A stretch of DNA of 64,000 nucleotides, from the NCBI GenBank assembly GCA_024280295.1, contig JAJRQK010000015.1, positions 32,078 through 96,077 on the forward strand. Reading direction: 5' to 3'. Each line of letters starts with the position of its first letter. Position 1 is the stretch's first letter. A program made the translations under genes and the position numbers. The notes below the pieces were generated by a model that had not been told where the DNA came from, ran no database searches, and saw nothing but the letters and a program-made list of their open reading frames with translations. Source of the stretch: Bacteroidota bacterium (GTDB lineage: Bacteria > Bacteroidota > Bacteroidia > Flavobacteriales_D > Crocinitomicaceae). This document shows positions 44,276-56,933 of this stretch, in pieces.

Positions 44276-47068
44276 TCACATCTCAGAGGGCTTTTTCCCG
44301 TAGCGCTCATAGAATTTTTTGTTGAAGTGTGAAGCCGTTGGGATTCCCACAAAATGTCGTACTTCAGATAATGTAGCAAATTTTTTGTCAGCGATGCAGA
44401 TAAAGGCTTTTTGAAGACGGAGTTCAAGAACAAACTGCACACTTGACATTCCTGTTAATTTTTGAGTTATTCGGGACAATTGTCGAGTACTATATCCCAT
44501 TTCTTCTGCCAAATCAGTAATCTTAAATAATTCGTTGGACAAATTATCGTTCACAATTCCCTTCATTTTTTCCAGTGATTGATCTTCGAGAGTTGCATCA
44601 TTTTCCCCAATAAATTCAAGATTATCCTTTATCCATCGTTCCCGTTCAGTTTTAGTAGTTAGTAAGTTCTTAACTCGGACGAGTAATTCTTCTCGTGAAA
44701 ACGGTTTTGTGATATAATCATCCACTCCCAAATTATAACCTTCAATTTTATCCTTTAACTGTACCTTTGCGGTGATAAAAATGTAAGGCGTATTTTTATA
44801 ATTTTCTAGCCGATTAATTTTTCCCCGCAGTTCAAAACCATCCATTAATGGCATCATCACATCTGAGATAATTAGGCTATATTTTTTCGTTTGGACTTTT
44901 TGAAGCCCTTCTATTCCATCAAATGCTGAGTCACAAGAATAATGCACAGAGAGTATTTCTGTTAAAAAAGCATTCATTTCTGGATTGTCTTCAATGATCA
45001 GTATGTTGAATTTGGGTAATGAGAGTAAGTCAATTTTTTCGGATGTTACTAGTTCTTCTTTTTCATTGAAGACTTTCTTTACTTGTTTAAGTTGGCCTAC
45101 CGCTTGAATGGGTATTTGTAGGGTAAACATAGCCCCCTCATTGGGTTTACTCTTCAAAATCACTTCACCATTAAGAGAGACTGCAAAATCTCTAGCTAGT
45201 GAGAGTCCTACTCCTACACCTCCAATAGTTGAAGTTTTAGAAGATTGATAAAAACGATTAAATATTTTTTCTTGCTCTTCTTTGAGTATTCCAGGTCCAT
45301 TATCTTTAATTGAGACTGATAGCTGTTGCTCAATAACATTGACAATGCATTTAATGAAGGTGTTTTTGGGTGAAAACTTGATTGCATTTGAAATGAAATT
45401 GTTTGCTATTTTCTCAATTCTACTTTCATCAGATTCGAAACAAAAATCTCCGTCAACATTTGAAGAATAATCAAGTTGGATGTTTTTAATTTCAGCTAAA
45501 GATTCAAACGAAAAGAATATTCTACGCATAAACGAATCAAGTGTAATAACCGATTTTTTTAATGGAAGTTCGCCCTTTTCAAGTTTGAGTAATTCGAGTA
45601 TTTCATTTGCGTTTGCAAGTACTTTACTACTGCTCATCAAGGCAGAATCTATTTGTTTTAGCGCTTTAGCATTACTGATTTCATCTTTAGCAATCGTTAA
45701 ATGACCGTTAATTAATGTAATTGGAGTCCTAATTTCATGTGCAATATTCTCTAAAAAGGTCGTTCTGAATTCATTCATTTCACGTTCTTTGTTAAGTTCA
45801 TTGAGAGTAAGTGCCTTTGCCTTTTTTCTGCGGAAATAGAGTATGGTGAAAAGAACAAGAAGAATTAATCCACCAACTGCAATTCCAGAAACAATACGAT
45901 CTTGCTTTGCCTCTGCCTTTGCCGAACTTAGTTTTTGAAGTGCAATCTCCTTGTCTTTTTCCTCAAGTTGAAATTCTTTATTATACTTAATATACCTCTC
46001 ATTTAATTCAACCTCTGACAATGAATCAACAATTTCAGCATGTCTTTTAGACAAAAGATATGCTTCTGAAAACTCACCTTGATACGCTAAAATTTGACTT
46101 ACAGCATCCAAATAACCAACCTTATTCCCAAGGATGATATCCTCAAAGTCAAAGAGTTGATCATATTCTGTCAATGTCACAGCAGCAGCACTAAAATCCT
46201 GCATCTGAACTTGAGCATTCATTAGGTCAAGGAGTACCACTTCTAACGCATTCTGATCTCCCGTTTTTTTAGTGTAATCAGCAGCTTTTGAATACCAAGT
46301 GATTGCCTCTTGAAATTCCTTAAACTCACTCATGTGATCCCCCTTAACACTATAACAGTAACCAATTAGGTAATCAATCTTGGCATTCAGAGATCGTTTT
46401 AAGGCATAATCAATGAGTTCAATCTTCTTACTTTTATCTGTAACAACTCTTGATAACGTTATATAAGAATGAATAATTGGGCCTGGAGATGCGTCAATTT
46501 TTTTTAGAACGCGGATCGCTTTACGCAAAAACACTTCGGCATTTTTACGATTTTCAGGCGTATTAGTAAGATTCACATAAGCATTACCAATATTAGCATT
46601 TAATATACCGATGTTCATTGAATCCTTCACTTCAGTAGCTAAATCTAATGCCTTGATCAAATATTCCAGTCCTTTATTTGTATAACCTTGAATACCCTTT
46701 ACTGATCCAAGAGCAGAGTAATTACGGAATTGAAAACTTTTATCTTTAAGTTTTTCAGCAAGTTTTATTGATTTCCAAAAATCATCTTCTGCGTTTCCAT
46801 AATCTCCCTTTTTATACCAAACATAACCACGCTCATAATGGCATCTCATCATCATTGAATCCAATCCACTCTCTTCACAATAAAAGCATGCTTTATTCAT
46901 AAATAGCATTGCAGTATCCGCATGATTCGCAGCATCCGCTAAATCAAAGAACTTAAATGCGTTCGTTACATTTTTCTTTTGAGAACTATTGATGTTTTTG
47001 GACTGCCCAAACCCACTATTTGAAATGAGAAAAGTTAAAAAAAATGAAACAAGTAAGTGTTTAGACAT
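44276..47068 (-). CDS. Hybrid two-component regulator: TPR - TM - histidine kinase - receiver - AraC-type HTH
   Basis: TPR-like N-term; FLENIAHEIRTPITLINGHL (H-box), NNFISNAIKFSPKN, DNGPGILKEEQEKIFNRFYQ; receiver NILIIEDNPEMNAFL...IISDVMMPLMDGFEL; C-term HTH ITDLAEEMGYSTRQLSRITQKLTG. Confidence 0.93.
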   Translation of the reverse strand: MSKHLLVSFFLTFLISNSGFGQSKNINSSQKKNVTNAFKFFDLADAANHADTAMLFMNKACFYCEESGLDSMMMRCHYERGYVWYKKGDYGNAEDDFWKSIKLAEKLKDKSFQFRNYSALGSVKGIQGYTNKGLEYLIKALDLATEVKDSMNIGILNANIGNAYVNLTNTPENRKNAEVFLRKAIRVLKKIDASPGPIIHSYITLSRVVTDKSKKIELIDYALKRSLNAKIDYLIGYCYSVKGDHMSEFKEFQEAITWYSKAADYTKKTGDQNALEVVLLDLMNAQVQMQDFSAAAVTLTEYDQLFDFEDIILGNKVGYLDAVSQILAYQGEFSEAYLLSKRHAEIVDSLSEVELNERYIKYNKEFQLEEKDKEIALQKLSSAKAEAKQDRIVSGIAVGGLILLVLFTILYFRRKKAKALTLNELNKEREMNEFRTTFLENIAHEIRTPITLINGHLTIAKDEISNAKALKQIDSALMSSSKVLANANEILELLKLEKGELPLKKSVITLDSFMRRIFFSFESLAEIKNIQLDYSSNVDGDFCFESDESRIEKIANNFISNAIKFSPKNTFIKCIVNVIEQQLSVSIKDNGPGILKEEQEKIFNRFYQSSKTSTIGGVGVGLSLARDFAVSLNGEVILKSKPNEGAMFTLQIPIQAVGQLKQVKKVFNEKEELVTSEKIDLLSLPKFNILIIEDNPEMNAFLTEILSVHYSCDSAFDGIEGLQKVQTKKYSLIISDVMMPLMDGFELRGKINRLENYKNTPYIFITAKVQLKDKIEGYNLGVDDYITKPFSREELLVRVKNLLTTKTERERWIKDNLEFIGENDATLEDQSLEKMKGIVNDNLSNELFKITDLAEEMGYSTRQLSRITQKLTGMSSVQFVLELRLQKAFICIADKKFATLSEVRHFVGIPTASHFNKKFYERYGKKPSEM

Positions 47069-47181: not shown

Positions 47182-47247
47182 TGTCCGAAATGAGAAAGCT
47201 CTTGTCTGAAATGAAACAATTCAAACATCTAAAACAAACCAAATTTG
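47182..47247 (+). promoter_or_regulatory. Direct-repeat operator plus -7 element upstream of the fibre gene
   Basis: TGTCCGAAATGA (47182-47193) -N9- TGTCTGAAATGA (47203-47214) -N25- CAAATTTG (47240-47247). Confidence 0.7.
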
Positions 47248-47293: not shown

Positions 47294-50200
47294 ATGAAAA
47301 AAATCCTTTTAGCAATCACAGTAACATTTGCTATTTATTTATCCTCTTTTGGACAAGCTCCAGAGGGGTTTAAATACCAAGCAGTAATTAGAAATGGTTC
47401 TAATACCATTATAACCAATCAACCTATTGGCATTCAACTTCGAATTCTACAGGGATCATCAACTGGTACCATCTTCTATTCTGAAACATTCACTCAAAGC
47501 ACAAACACATTTGGACTTATCAACCTTGAAATTGGTACTGGAATAACGACTTACAATTTTGCAAGTATTGATTGGAGCAATGGTCCTTATTTTATTGAAA
47601 CTTCTATTGATATAAGTGGTGGGAATGTTTATTCACTCATGGGAAGTTCACAACTAATGAGCGTACCATACGCACTCTATGCTAAAAACTCAGGCAGTTC
47701 AACTCCCGGTCCTCAAGGTTCTGCTGGAACAAATGGCATTGACGGAGCGATTGGTCCAACAGGTCCAGCGGGAATAGATGGAAATGGCATTACCTCAACT
47801 GTCAATAATGGCAACGGAACCTATACCTTCAACTATTCAGATGGATCATCATTCACAACTGCAAATTTAACGGGACCACAAGGTGCAACAGGAAGTGCTG
47901 GCGCAATAGGTTCTACTGGTGCGACTGGAACTCAAGGGCCAATTGGAAATACAGGGTTAACTGGACCATCAGGAAACAATGGTATCAACGGAACAAATGG
48001 GAACGATGGAATAGGAATTACCTCAACTGTCAATAATGGCAACGGAACCTATACCTTCAACTATTCTGATGGATCATCATTCACAACTGCAAATTTAACA
48101 GGTTCTCAAGGACCAATTGGAAATACAGGGTTAACAGGACCAGCAGGAAACAATGGTATCAACGGAACAAATGGAATAGGCATTACCTCAACTGTCAATA
48201 ATGGCAACGGAACCTATACCTTCAACTATTCAGATGGATCATCATTCACAACTGCAAATTTAACAGGTTCTCAAGGACCAATTGGAAATACAGGGTTAAC
48301 AGGACCAGCAGGAAACAATGGTATCAACGGAACAAATGGAGTAGGCATTACCTCAACTGTCAACAATGGCAACGGGACCTACACTTTCAATTATTCGGAT
48401 GGATCATCTTTCACAACGGCAAATTTAACAGGACCGCAGGGTGCAGCAGGAAGTACTGGCGCAACAGGCTCTACTGGAGTTCAAGGGCCAATTGGTAACA
48501 CTGGGTTAACTGGACCACAAGGTGCAATGGGTTCTACTGGTGCTACAGGTCTACAAGGCCCAGCAGGTGCAGATAATCAGAACTTGTCACTTATTGGGAA
48601 TACCTTATATATCCAAAATGGAAATGCTGTTGATCTAAGTACATTGCAATCTTCCACTTCGGATAGCGTTTGGTTTATTGAAAATACTACAACTCCATCA
48701 ACCTCAACAACTGACCAAATTTATCATACAGGAAATACTGCAATTGGTAAAAATACAGCCGATTTCAAACTCGATGTTGAAGACCTTTCGGGTGCGAGTC
48801 GTGCAGTGAATATAAAAATAGGAGGGACAACTAGCACTGATATATATGGACAGTATATCCAGAATATCAATACTGGTAGTGGTAAACACTATGGAGTCTA
48901 CACAGATATATCGGGTACTGGAATTAATGATCAGTATGGCTACTATTCATCTATCTCAAATTCATCAAATGGCGTACACTATGGTCTTTACAATGATTTG
49001 TCTAGTAACGGAGATGGGGCAAAAAAAGGAGTCTATAATATTCTATCTGGAACAGGTCATGGTCCTGTAACAGGTATAGAAAATGGATTAATTGTAGAAG
49101 GAGATGGCCCACAAACTGGAATTAGTAATTCACTTTTAGGAGATGGTGATGGTGAACATATTGGAGTGTCTAACAACATAGCTGGAAATGGCGTTGAAAA
49201 ACATTATGGTGTTTACAATTGGATCTTTGGTGGCGGATCTAATGAACAATATGGAACATACTCTTCTATCTACAATTGGGGAAATGGCTACCATATCGGT
49301 TCCTATAATGATGTTGCTGGAACGGGAAATGGTCTTCATTGGGGTACGTACAATAATTTAATTGGATCAGGAACGGGAACACATTACGGTACAAGTAACT
49401 GGATATCAGGAAGTGGGTCAGGATATCAGTATGGTTCAGTTCAAACAATTTTAAACACAGGAAACGGAATACATTTTGGATCAAGGAATGACCTTCAAGG
49501 AGATGGTTCAGGTGTTCATTATGGAGTCAACACCATACTTTCAGGTGCTGGAACAGGAACTCAATACGGAGCGTTTTCTTTGATAACGAATATTTCAAAT
49601 TCTGAGCACTACGGGGTGAGAAACGAACTTATCGGGACAGGTAATGGAAATCATCGTGGAACTTACAATTTGATGGGGGGAACAGGTGAAGGAAATCAAC
49701 ATGGAACATACAATCAAATTACCAATTCAGGATCATCTGCGCATATTGGCACACTTAATGACTTGACAGGAAATGGTGATGGAACACAATTTGGTACTAC
49801 AAACTCGGTTGCTGGAAATGGGACAGGTTTTCATTACGGAGTAAGTACAGTTCTAGCAGGTGCTGGCACAGGCGATCAATTTGGAGCTTATGCATTAATT
49901 GCAAATAGCTCTAATTCAAACCATTTTGGTATAAAAAATGAAATCATTGGAGGGGGTAGCGGAAATCATCGTGGAACTTATAATTTAATGGCAGGTAGTG
50001 GGGTTGGAACCCAACACGGAACATACAATGAAATAACAAATTCTGGAACTGGAGTTCATGTTGGGACAATAAATAGCCTTTCTGGTAGTGGTAATGGTCG
50101 TCAAGTTGGAGAATACAATAATATCAGTAACGTCGGAAATGATGAGCACTATGGTATTTACAATCAACTAACTGGAACGGGTTCGGGTATTCATATAGCG

Positions 50201-50974: not shown

Positions 50975-51043
50975 AAAAGAGCAGGTACTGATGAATTGGT
51001 GTTAAAGGGATTTCACCTTTTAGGATGCTCCTGCTCTTTTCTA
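50975..51043 (+). terminator. Terminator-like hairpin between the S74 gene and the next gene
   Basis: AAAAGAGCAGG (50975-50985) pairs with CCTGCTCTTTT (51030-51040). Confidence 0.6.
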
Positions 51044-51058
51044 CTAAAAATAAACACT

Positions 51059-51526
51059 ATGAAAAATACAATCATAACATTATCGATGATACTAATAACA
51101 GGTATCTCAAACAGTCAAGAAGTTATTTCGTCACAAGGGAATTCATACTCTAATGGGGCTAGTTCAATCGACTTTACAATAGGTGAGGTAATCATTGATA
51201 CTGGAACTGATGGTTCGACAACAATCACTCAAGGTTTTCATCAAACAATCTGGAATGTAGTTGGAATTGAAGACCACATCCCAGACTTTGAAGTTCTTGT
51301 CTTTCCAAATCCAATACAAGATCAATTGCATATAAAAACTGACAATTTCAACAACGTTAATTATCGCTTATTTGACGCAAAAGGTCGATTAATAATGGCT
51401 GATGAGTTAAAAACAAATCTAACTCAACTGGAAGTTAGTCAACTAACAATGGGAGCATACATTCTTCAGTTTTACGATCAAAACCAACAGAGCTTGAAGA
51501 CAATTAAACTTACTAAGAACAACTAA
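51059..51526 (+). CDS. Secreted T9SS type A sorting-domain protein
   Basis: Signal peptide MKNTIITLSMILITGISNSQ; C-term VFPNPIQDQLHIKT...KTIKLTKNN. Confidence 0.8.
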   Translation: MKNTIITLSMILITGISNSQEVISSQGNSYSNGASSIDFTIGEVIIDTGTDGSTTITQGFHQTIWNVVGIEDHIPDFEVLVFPNPIQDQLHIKTDNFNNVNYRLFDAKGRLIMADELKTNLTQLEVSQLTMGAYILQFYDQNQQSLKTIKLTKNN

Positions 51527-53274: not shown

Positions 53275-53284
53275 CCTCTCAAAA

Positions 53285-53318
53285 ACATCCCTTATAGACT
53301 ACTGTTTATAGGGGATGT
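53285..53318 (+). terminator. Hairpin downstream of the 51538-53274 gene
   Basis: ACATCCCTTATA ... TATAGGGGATGT, 12-bp stem with one G-T pair. Confidence 0.5.
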
Positions 53319-53381
53319 CCGTTTTGACACCATCGTTGTCTGAAATGACTTCACCTTACGGATGGACATGCTGTAGCTTTG
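53316..53381 (+). promoter_or_regulatory. Second copy of the direct-repeat operator plus -7 element
   Basis: TGTCCGTTTTGA (53316-53327) -N9- TGTCTGAAATGA (53337-53348) -N25- TAGCTTTG (53374-53381). Confidence 0.72.
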
Positions 53382-53406: not shown

Positions 53407-53817
53407 ATGAAATTATTAATCCCAACTTTATTAGTACTTAACTCTGCCTTTGTAGGGTTATCTCAAGACGCAAATTTAGCATCAACTGTTGATCATCTTT
53501 CTTATGAGTATTATCAAAATACGACAGAGCAAGACTTGATTGATAAGACAACATCACCAACTATTCATTCAGAAAGTGATGCCATTCCATTTTTAGAATC
53601 CACTGCCTACTTCAATGCTGCAAAAAAAACAATCGTCGTTGAAGAGAATAAGAATCGCTCGTATCGAATACTTAATTCCTCAGGAAAGTTAATTAAGAAG
53701 GGATGGGTAAATAAAAACTCACAAGATATAGATGTAGAGCATCTTTCTAGCGGAACATTCTACATCCTAATAGATGGAAAAATGATAACTACAACACATA
53801 GAATATTCATCTTTTAA
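53407..53817 (+). CDS. Small secreted protein with degenerate T9SS-like C-term
   Basis: Signal peptide; C-term NRSYRILNSSGKLIKKGWVNKNSQDIDVEHLSSGTFYILIDGK. Confidence 0.65.
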   Translation: MKLLIPTLLVLNSAFVGLSQDANLASTVDHLSYEYYQNTTEQDLIDKTTSPTIHSESDAIPFLESTAYFNAAKKTIVVEENKNRSYRILNSSGKLIKKGWVNKNSQDIDVEHLSSGTFYILIDGKMITTTHRIFIF

Positions 53818-53828
53818 TCCCAATTATC

Positions 53829-55637
53829 ATGTTAAAACAACTTATTACTTCGACGTTAATTTTAGCTTCAGCACATTTTGTAAGCGCACAAAATATTGGA
53901 ATCAATTCAACTGGAGCAACTCCAGATGCCTCTGCTACACTGGATGTTTCATCTACAAATGGTGGATTACTTGTACCAAGAATGATACTTACTCAAAGAA
54001 ATGCGATAACAACGCCCGCAACAAGTTTACTTATTTATCAAACAGATAATACTCCTGGGTTTTATTATTACAATGGAACTGCTTGGGTGCCAATCAATTC
54101 TCTTTCAACAAATCCAAATTGGTCAAAATTAGGTAATGCATCCACTATAAACGGCACACATTTTATTGGTACAACAAATGGTCAAAATTTAGATATACGA
54201 ACTAACAACGTTATTCGGGTTCGTATAACTCAAAAAGGCCAAATTGAAATACTCAATACTGGAGGATCAACTTTTTTGGGTGAAAATGCAGGTATGTCCG
54301 ATAATCTAATCAGCAATTACAATACATACATTGGTTATAGATCTGGTCAAACTGCCATATCTGGATCGTTTAATGTTGGTCTTGGAAGCCGAACGTTGGA
54401 GTCTATGACAATTGCAAACAATAATACTGGACTAGGGACATTGAGTTTAAACGCAACTACAACAGGATCACAAAATACTGCTGTTGGAACTCGCTCTGGA
54501 GCTAGTAATACGACAGGTGGAGGAAATAGTGCCTACGGAGAACAAGCACTCTATGCCAACATTTCAGGCAACTACAATACGGCATTAGGTGGTCTTTCAT
54601 TAGCTTCATCTACCGGAGCAAATAATGTTGGATTAGGCTATGGGGCTGGATCAAATATTACCACTGGTTCGAATAATATTATGCTTGGGTATACTATTAA
54701 CGCACAATCTGCTACAGGATCTAACCAACTCAATATTGGAAACTTGATTTTCTCAAATGGTATAGACGGAACCAATTCAATCTTATCAACAGGCTCAATT
54801 GGAGTTGGAATATCCTCACCACTAGAAAAACTTGATGTTGCTGGAGCTATTAAATTCAGCAACACAAACTCTACCAACCTTGGAACAATCCGATGGACAG
54901 GAACAGATTTTGAAGGGTACACTGGGTCAGGGTGGCTTTCATTGACAGCACCTGGAGGCACATCGCTATGGACAACAACAGGTACTGATATTTACAGACC
55001 AACAGGCGCAGTCGGTATCGGGTTATCACCAAGTGGAGGTTATGCACTTGATGTACAGGGTACAGTTCGAATTTCACCACCAATTGCAAATTCAGATTTT
55101 ATCTTCAGTAATAATGGATTTGAACCTACATTTCTACCCAGTACAAATAATTTCGGTTATGTAGGGAGCAACCTAAATAGAATCTATCAGGGACATTTTT
55201 CAAACCTTACTGTATATAATACATTTACTAACTTGTCAGATCGAGCGATTAAAGAAAATATTAAGCCAATAAACTCCGCTCTTAGCAAAATTCTGGCGTT
55301 GAGCGGTAAAACATATGACCTGAAACGGGAATTTGCTTTAGGTGACACTCATGGCATGTCTGATGAAAAAATTCAACAATTGGAAGCAGGACGAATGAAT
55401 AAAATCGGTTTCATTGCACAAGAACTTGAAGAAATTCTTCCAGAATTAGTTCACTATAATGAAGAATCAAAGCTAAAATCAGTTGATTACATTGGTGTGA
55501 TTCCTGTTTTAGTTGAATCTATCAAAGAACAACAAGAAATCATCAATACTCAAGATCAACGAATGAAGGATCAAGATGAAAAAATTGAGGAATTGTATGA
55601 GTTAATTCTTGAGTTAACATCAAAGGACAAAAAATAA
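53829..55637 (+). CDS. Secreted tail-fibre-like protein with C-terminal peptidase S74 domain
   Basis: NTYIGYRSGQTAISGSFNVGLG... repeats; LSDRAIKENIKPINSALSKILALSGKTYDLK. Confidence 0.87.
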   Translation: MLKQLITSTLILASAHFVSAQNIGINSTGATPDASATLDVSSTNGGLLVPRMILTQRNAITTPATSLLIYQTDNTPGFYYYNGTAWVPINSLSTNPNWSKLGNASTINGTHFIGTTNGQNLDIRTNNVIRVRITQKGQIEILNTGGSTFLGENAGMSDNLISNYNTYIGYRSGQTAISGSFNVGLGSRTLESMTIANNNTGLGTLSLNATTTGSQNTAVGTRSGASNTTGGGNSAYGEQALYANISGNYNTALGGLSLASSTGANNVGLGYGAGSNITTGSNNIMLGYTINAQSATGSNQLNIGNLIFSNGIDGTNSILSTGSIGVGISSPLEKLDVAGAIKFSNTNSTNLGTIRWTGTDFEGYTGSGWLSLTAPGGTSLWTTTGTDIYRPTGAVGIGLSPSGGYALDVQGTVRISPPIANSDFIFSNNGFEPTFLPSTNNFGYVGSNLNRIYQGHFSNLTVYNTFTNLSDRAIKENIKPINSALSKILALSGKTYDLKREFALGDTHGMSDEKIQQLEAGRMNKIGFIAQELEEILPELVHYNEESKLKSVDYIGVIPVLVESIKEQQEIINTQDQRMKDQDEKIEELYELILELTSKDKK

Positions 55638-55658
55638 TCAATTTTACACTTATATGTT

Positions 55659-56933
55659 ATGAAAAAAGAACGAAGAATCGATCTCTTAGTAATGGTATTC
55701 ATGTTAATTGGATTATCATTTAATGCAAGAACACAAAACAGAATAATTATCAATAATGCAGGCTATTTAACCTTCGGAACTACTGGATATCTCGTTGTAG
55801 ACAATTCATTGGCAAATGCAATTACTACACTTGGAAATGGTGGAGGGATTATTTCAGAAATGGAAACCGCTTATGTTATATGGAATGTTAGTATCGCAGC
55901 TGGGTCTTATACAGTTCCCTTTTGTACAGCCTTGCCTACAGTAGTCCCAATTCCTGTAAATTATAGCGTAACTAATACAGGGAATACATCTGGGAATGGA
56001 TTTGTGATATTTTCCACATACCCTACTACAGTGCCAACAACACAAGCCCCATGGCCAGTTGTTGTGAGCTGTTTAAATTTCACAACACCGTCCTGCTCTG
56101 GTCCTGATCAGCCTTATTCAGCTGTTGATCGTTTTTGGCTTATTGGACAGGGCGGATATAGTTTTAATTCAAATCCAGCTGCCACGCTAGAGTTGTCTTT
56201 TCTAAACATTGAAGCTGCAGCTCCTAATACAATTACTCCAGCAAATTTAAGAGCATACAGGTACGACTCAAATAATAATGATTGGTATGGGTATAATTCG
56301 GGGACATCTTCTTCTGGACCAACAGTCAGTAAAGTATCAAACATTGTTCTTCCATCATCCAATTCGTTCTATGAATGGACGCTTGCAGATGTACTTCTAC
56401 CACTCCCCGTAGAGTTGTCTTCATTCGAAAGTAAGTGTTTGGAAAACAAAACGCATCTATCTTGGACCACAGACAGTGAATCAAACAGTGATTATTTCGC
56501 TGTTGAAGCAAGCGTAGACGGAATTTATTTTGAGGAAGTCGAGCGTGTTCAAGCACAAGGAAACAGTAACTCTACAACCAATTACTCCTACAATGTTTCA
56601 GATTCTCGAAAAGGGAATTATTACCGTCTCAATCAAGTAGATGTGGACGGGGTTTCTGAATTATCAGAAGTAATCCATTCAAATTGTGACCCAAAACTGC
56701 TCGAATTAATGGTGTACCCGAACCCGACAGATGGCTTATTCACAGTTGATATATCTAACAATAGTTACGGTTCACTGCTCATAAGTAGCCCACTTGGAAA
56801 AGTAATTAGATCAATTAAACTTGATGCACAATTTTCTTATCAAATTGATCTCAGCGAGCATGCTCCAGGGATTTACTTCGTGACTTTATTTACTGAAAGT
56901 AATAAAAGCACAGTGAAAATTATTAAAAAATAA
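55659..56933 (+). CDS. Secreted protein with T9SS type A sorting domain
   Basis: LPVELSSFESKCLENKTHLSWTTDSESNSDYFAVEAS followed by VYPNPTDGLFTVDIS...VKIIKK. Confidence 0.85.
   Translation: MKKERRIDLLVMVFMLIGLSFNARTQNRIIINNAGYLTFGTTGYLVVDNSLANAITTLGNGGGIISEMETAYVIWNVSIAAGSYTVPFCTALPTVVPIPVNYSVTNTGNTSGNGFVIFSTYPTTVPTTQAPWPVVVSCLNFTTPSCSGPDQPYSAVDRFWLIGQGGYSFNSNPAATLELSFLNIEAAAPNTITPANLRAYRYDSNNNDWYGYNSGTSSSGPTVSKVSNIVLPSSNSFYEWTLADVLLPLPVELSSFESKCLENKTHLSWTTDSESNSDYFAVEASVDGIYFEEVERVQAQGNSNSTTNYSYNVSDSRKGNYYRLNQVDVDGVSELSEVIHSNCDPKLLELMVYPNPTDGLFTVDISNNSYGSLLISSPLGKVIRSIKLDAQFSYQIDLSEHAPGIYFVTLFTESNKSTVKIIKK

Follow-up and report, generated by a model that had tools for sequence, protein, structure and literature searches.

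One of the questions that this locus raises is what a pair of short direct repeats does in the gap between a hybrid two-component regulator (HTCS) and a divergent gene for a large fibre protein. The locus lies in a stretch of 64,000 nt, here called the window, from a Bacteroidota bacterium (GCA_024280295.1, contig JAJRQK010000015.1, positions 32,078-96,077, forward strand; GTDB lineage Bacteria; Bacteroidota; Bacteroidia; Flavobacteriales_D; Crocinitomicaceae). An original prediction for 47182-47247, made by a model from the letters and a list of open reading frames without database searches, had read the repeats as the operator of the divergent regulator, followed by a -7 element. A sequence check finds both repeats and the -7 octamer where they had been placed. 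The features discussed here are collected in Table 1.

Table 1. Positions of the regulator, operators, hairpin and fibre genes in the window
Feature	Position	Strand	Remarks
Hybrid two-component regulator, 930 aa	44276-47068	-	Signal peptide, TPR region, TM ~390-412, HisKA, HATPase, receiver, AraC HTH
H914 codon, second recognition helix	44327-44329	-	Column that best tracks half-site base 6
Operator 1, distal half-site TGTCCGAAATGA	47182-47193	+	Position check, genome pattern search, operator alignment
Operator 1, proximal half-site TGTCTGAAATGA	47203-47214	+	21 bp from the distal one, 9-base spacer
Putative -7 element CAAATTTG	47240-47247	+	25 bases after the proximal half-site; ATG at 47294
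Fibre 1, 1224 aa	47294-50968	+	MAT-like N-terminal domain, collagen repeats, S74 chaperone, SDRTLK
Small secreted protein, T9SS sorting tail	51059-51526	+	ORF listed from TTG 50996; ATG 51059 gives a signal peptide
Fibre 2, 578 aa	51538-53274	+	S74 (SDRKIK); residues 1-150 like fibre 1, remainder like fibre 3
Strong hairpin, probable terminator of the first operon	53279-53327	+	-24.6 kcal/mol, z -7; downstream of fibre 2
Operator 2, distal half-site TGTCCGTTTTGA	53316-53327	+	TTTT inside the 3' side of the hairpin
Operator 2, proximal half-site TGTCTGAAATGA	53337-53348	+	Genome pattern search
Putative -7 element of operator 2 TAGCTTTG	53374-53381	+	
Small protein, T9SS sorting tail	53407-53817	+	First gene behind operator 2
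Fibre 3, 602 aa	53829-55637	+	S74 (SDRAIK)
424-aa secreted protein	55659-56933	+	T9SS type A tail

The probable operators and their putative promoters

The genome scan that the original prediction had named as its check gives a clear answer. In pattern searches of the 3.46-Mb genome that allow up to two mismatches, TGTCYGNNNTGA-N9-TGTCYGNNNTGA turns up just twice. Both matches are perfect and lie on the + strand of this window, and each heads a fibre operon. Only 0.18 occurrences of the paired motif would be expected in the window even with three mismatches, and the paired repeat is thus far beyond chance. The second site (53316-53348) had been missed before and lies in the gap in front of a second fibre operon, 53407-56933; its spacer and flanks are unrelated to those of the first. 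Base 6 of the half-site was fixed to G solely in this pattern and left free in the generalised ones, and the half-site consensus is TGTCC[G/A/C]AAATGA, in two direct copies 21 bp, or two helical turns, apart.

At both window operators exactly 29 bp separate the proximal half-site from the start of TTTG (47244 and 53378). The housekeeping sigma factor of the Bacteroidota has TAnnTTTG as its published -7 consensus, confirmed in Flavobacterium johnsoniae (PMC7366714). The proposed -7 element holds as regards the fixed position of its TTTG, but the octamer CAAATTTG is itself one base off the consensus; its counterpart at operator 2, TAGCTTTG, matches perfectly. Since F. johnsoniae promoters generally have no identifiable -33 motif (PMC7366714), a missing -33 element is by itself no argument for activation. 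When the generalised pattern is combined with TTTG at +29, the genome holds exactly three perfect matches, two of them the window operators and the third on contig C74. Among 11 operators found by the repeat alone, TTTG stands at +29 in nine and at +30 in one, and the remaining one has TTTCG. Alignment of 13 operators gives up to 2.4 bits per column in the half-sites and the -7 box and 0-0.6 bits in the 25 bp between them.

The hairpin behind fibre 2 extends into operator 2, and its 3' side covers the distal half-site. There, TTTT replaces the AAAT of most other half-sites and coincides with the T-run that a terminator would be expected to have. One stretch of DNA may thus both end the first operon and control the second. 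A terminator at this position means that the second operon needs its own promoter, which is consistent with operator 2. Another inverted repeat, AAAAGAGCAGG ... CCTGCTCTTTT (~50976-51046), was seen by eye between fibre 1 and the next gene and may be a terminator or attenuator that separates fibre 1 from the genes that follow.

The divergent regulator

The divergent gene had been described as a TPR/HK/receiver/AraC regulator. Its HisKA, HATPase, receiver and HTH domains score above the Pfam cut-off; the sensor is TPR-like, with TPR matches below the cut-off. The N-terminus resembles a signal peptide and a single hydrophobic stretch follows at ~390-412. Judged by this predicted architecture the protein is an HTCS. 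The phosphoacceptor histidine and the receiver aspartate are kept in all 12 regulators compared here (AHEIRTP and SD[VI]MMP).

In Bacteroides thetaiotaomicron, HTCS operators are described as direct repeats with an average 21-bp period, read as dimers on one DNA face, and the HTCS_Rgu-1 (BT4111/BT4124) operator is given explicitly as 12-9-12 (Ravcheev et al. 2013, PMC3878776). This backs the earlier argument that a 21-bp direct-repeat spacing suits an AraC-type dimer. The present locus is like HTCS_Rgu-1 in having two 12-bp direct sites with a 9-bp spacer upstream of an operon that adjoins a regulator that joins histidine kinase, receiver and AraC domain in one polypeptide, and like the B. thetaiotaomicron systems in having paralogous regulators with related motifs. 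The consensus TGTCC[GAC]AAATGA and the fixed 29 bp to TTTG are described here; the comparison with the published operators (PMC3878776) is one of architecture.

The same operator beside related regulators

The third perfect site of the genome, on contig C74, is flanked on one side by a paralogous regulator (44% identity) and on the other by a divergent operon that encodes an S74 fibre and a T9SS-tailed protein. This regulator is the sole close paralog of 44276-47068 in the genome, and all three perfect sites adjoin these two, the genome's only members of the regulator clade.

A profile scan of 84,980 genomes with a four-regulator alignment gave ten related regulators (L049-L058), two of which, G004 and G009, were already part of the query alignment. 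Almost all of these loci are from MAGs, which carry the labels Flavobacteriales, Flavobacteriaceae, Bacteroidales, Bacteroidetes and Chlorobiota, and the phylogenetic non-independence of the loci is partly dealt with below. In eight of the ten loci the paired repeat stands plainly between the regulator and the divergent gene, in one of these with three mismatches; in L053 and L056 it has drifted and was recognised when anchored on TTTG. In a leave-one-out matrix search the divergent gap ranks first in 12 of 12 loci. Eleven of them reach 24-48, where no reversed control exceeds 16, whilst L056 scores 14, below the top reversed control of 16, and is not significant alone. Reversed controls are also nearly empty in the operator pattern searches.

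The next outgroup regulator, L156/L157, adjoins a fibre of the same kind and its operator is ambiguous: in L157 the proximal half-site is perfect and TTTG lies 29 bp from it, but there is no clear distal half-site. No comparable site was found in 70 less related loci (866 kb), and pattern searches across the phylum turned up nothing convincing beyond the source genome: the regulator clade is rare (5/240 family genomes and 5/399 order genomes). The viral contigs searched hold no relatives. In distant HTCS loci, any 21-bp repeat followed by TTTG occurs 14 times, against 24 in reversed controls.

Several other matches were set aside or noted. Those in L003-L005, L046 and L047 lie inside coding sequence and were dismissed as chance, and L131 (G450) has the paired motif without TTTG at +29 and without such a regulator in the 3 kb examined. 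Some distant HTCS loci (L142, L144, L016, L012 and L009) carry other 21-bp-spaced repeats beside the regulator (TGTTACAAATCA, TGCAACAAT), overall no better than controls. A degenerate fourth site of the source genome, TGTCTAAAACAG-N9-TGTCCAAAATAA (L130 3865-3930; G000:C59:53864-53929), lies upstream of a 425-aa secreted protein, with TTTG at +29 and A at base 6 in both halves; its matrix score is 28, and a pattern search that allows as many mismatches yields equally many control matches.

Base 6 and the recognition helix

Loci differ in base 6 of their half-sites (G, A or C), yet the two halves of an operator agree at this base in 13 of 13 cases, where 4.5 would be expected (permutation p ~2e-5, with the tree ignored; the TTTG geometry helped to place two of the 13 operators, L053 and L056). 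Over the 12 regulators, residue 914, which sits in the second recognition helix directly before an invariant FNKK, ranks first of 727 variable columns in its association with base 6. Histidine goes with G in four regulators, tyrosine with A in five and asparagine with C in two; L057 is the exception, with histidine and C. The outgroup L157 contradicts the rule by pairing tyrosine with a G half-site.

A tree from which the HTH domain was left out needs at least six changes of base 6 and five of residue 914, so the pairing is not one inherited block. Independent base-6/914 pairs number 2-3, all in the expected direction and too few for significance. We tentatively suggest that residue 914 sets base 6 (histidine reading G, tyrosine A and asparagine C) and in this way insulates the paralogous fibre regulators, H/G here from Y/A on C74, although we would not yet favor this over its negation. 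If true, the specificity of a family of HTCS regulators would follow a simple rule. The loci also provide naturally occurring combinations of an AraC-type recognition residue and the DNA base that varies with it, so that family specificity can be tested by single substitutions. That base 6 tracks a residue of the recognition helix in any case ties the regulator family to these sites.

Mode of regulation

What, then, do the repeats do? Based on the sequence evidence, the repeat is most probably an operator through which the divergent HTCS (44276-47068) activates transcription. The assignment of the operator to the divergent regulator, as originally predicted, is supported by the same operator beside a paralog and ten related regulators, by its published 21-bp form and by the relation between base 6 and the recognition helix. 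Under activation, the TPR domain would sense a cue in the periplasm, and this would lead to autophosphorylation at H444, followed by phosphotransfer from H444 to D736 of the receiver. Two AraC-type DNA-binding domains would then occupy the half-sites on one helix face, near -45 and -66 relative to the predicted start. The bound regulator would bring the housekeeping RNA polymerase to a promoter that has a -7 element and lacks a -33 element. Both fibre operons would be turned on together, and their products at the cell surface would be mosaic S74 fibres (trimeric, self-cleaving) with small T9SS-tailed partners.

Another option is that the operators do belong to this HTCS and are repressive, the unphosphorylated protein binding and blocking transcription until it is signalled. 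The S/CHIP motif of the receiver alpha3-beta4 loop is tied to HTCS autoinhibition and is common, not universal, among HTCS (PMC11253607). The regulators here are like that autoinhibition class in the receiver-AraC/HTH_18 fusion, the conserved phosphoacceptor and the retained P and K of the motif, but unlike it in that the S/C-H is missing in 12 of 12, which read NTP, NIP, LIP, LTP and similar. The contact that keeps the DNA-binding domains off in most HTCS would thus be absent, so that binding without phosphorylation, and with it a repressor mode, is conceivable; HTCS that depart from S/CHIP have been proposed to bind unphosphorylated, and BT2391 represses (PMC11253607). The position of the sites makes repression unlikely, however: the proximal half-site stops 29 bp upstream of the -7 TTTG, which places it beyond the core promoter, in the position that activators occupy, and a geometry to TTTG that stays fixed over very divergent loci fits contact with the polymerase.

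It is more improbable still that the repeats bind a different, unlinked regulator and that the divergent HTCS is a mere neighbor. The genome is not short of candidates, with 62 histidine kinase/receiver relatives at first look, but the operator recurs beside one regulator clade in several genomes, the three perfect sites of this genome all lie beside its two clade members, and base 6 follows the recognition helix of that same clade. Finally, both window sites lie near related fibre genes and the second could be a copied promoter, yet the unrelated spacers and flanks, the same geometry in other species and the nearly empty reversed controls leave a negligible chance that the repeats are an accident or a duplication artefact without function.

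The predicted fibre operons and their relation to known systems

We infer operon membership of the downstream genes from gene order and spacing. Fibre 2 is 51% like fibre 1 over its N-terminal 150 aa and 44% like fibre 3 in its body, and the SDxxxK autocleavage motif is kept in all three window fibres, which resemble, as predicted from their sequences, mosaic adhesive trimers. Fibres 1 and 2 match NF053851 (NCBIfam Bdello_MAT_N) at 33-38 bits (E 3e-8 and 1e-9), with a curated cut-off of 60, and the structure model of the N-domain is poor (pLDDT 54). They are like the Bdellovibrio MAT fibres (PMC10769870) in the signal peptide, a possible N-terminal domain of ~130 aa, the variable middle and the C-terminal S74 with SDxxxK, and also in mosaicism, fibre 2 being a mosaic of fibres 1 and 3. 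Unlike those, they score below the Bdello_MAT_N cut-off, fibre 3 and the fibres of the relatives have no match to it, and the genes sit with T9SS partners and an HTCS.

The genome has five strong S74 genes and one weak one, and four of the five strong genes lie behind the three operators. The fifth (C59:121332; L161 1686-3690, G000:C59) has a T9SS neighbor and neither the operator nor an adjacent regulator, and is useful as an internal control. In most related loci the divergent genes encode secreted proteins with an S74 chaperone domain. Elsewhere the product of the divergent gene is large and secreted and has a T9SS tail that scores below threshold (L055), or is a multidomain secreted protein (L058), and in L051 (4975-5134) the full operator lies between a clade regulator and an RHS/SpvB-like gene, so named by its N-terminal sequence, rather than an S74 fibre.

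The published targets of B. thetaiotaomicron HTCS are susCD and polysaccharide genes (PMC3878776), whereas here they would be S74 fibres and T9SS proteins. No HTCS control of S74 or T9SS fibres is described in the open-access literature searched. By sequence, a predicted periplasmic TPR sensor, the lack of S/CHIP and a cargo of mosaic S74/T9SS fibres set the system apart from the Bacteroides HTCS. HTCS regulation would thus reach from glycan foraging to secreted mosaic fibres, and such regulons can be sought with a transferable pattern of 12-9-12, then 29 bp, then TTTG. In fibre 1 itself we also observed several copies of a 28-aa module that alternate with collagen-like stretches, together with many short GxHYGxYN repeats.
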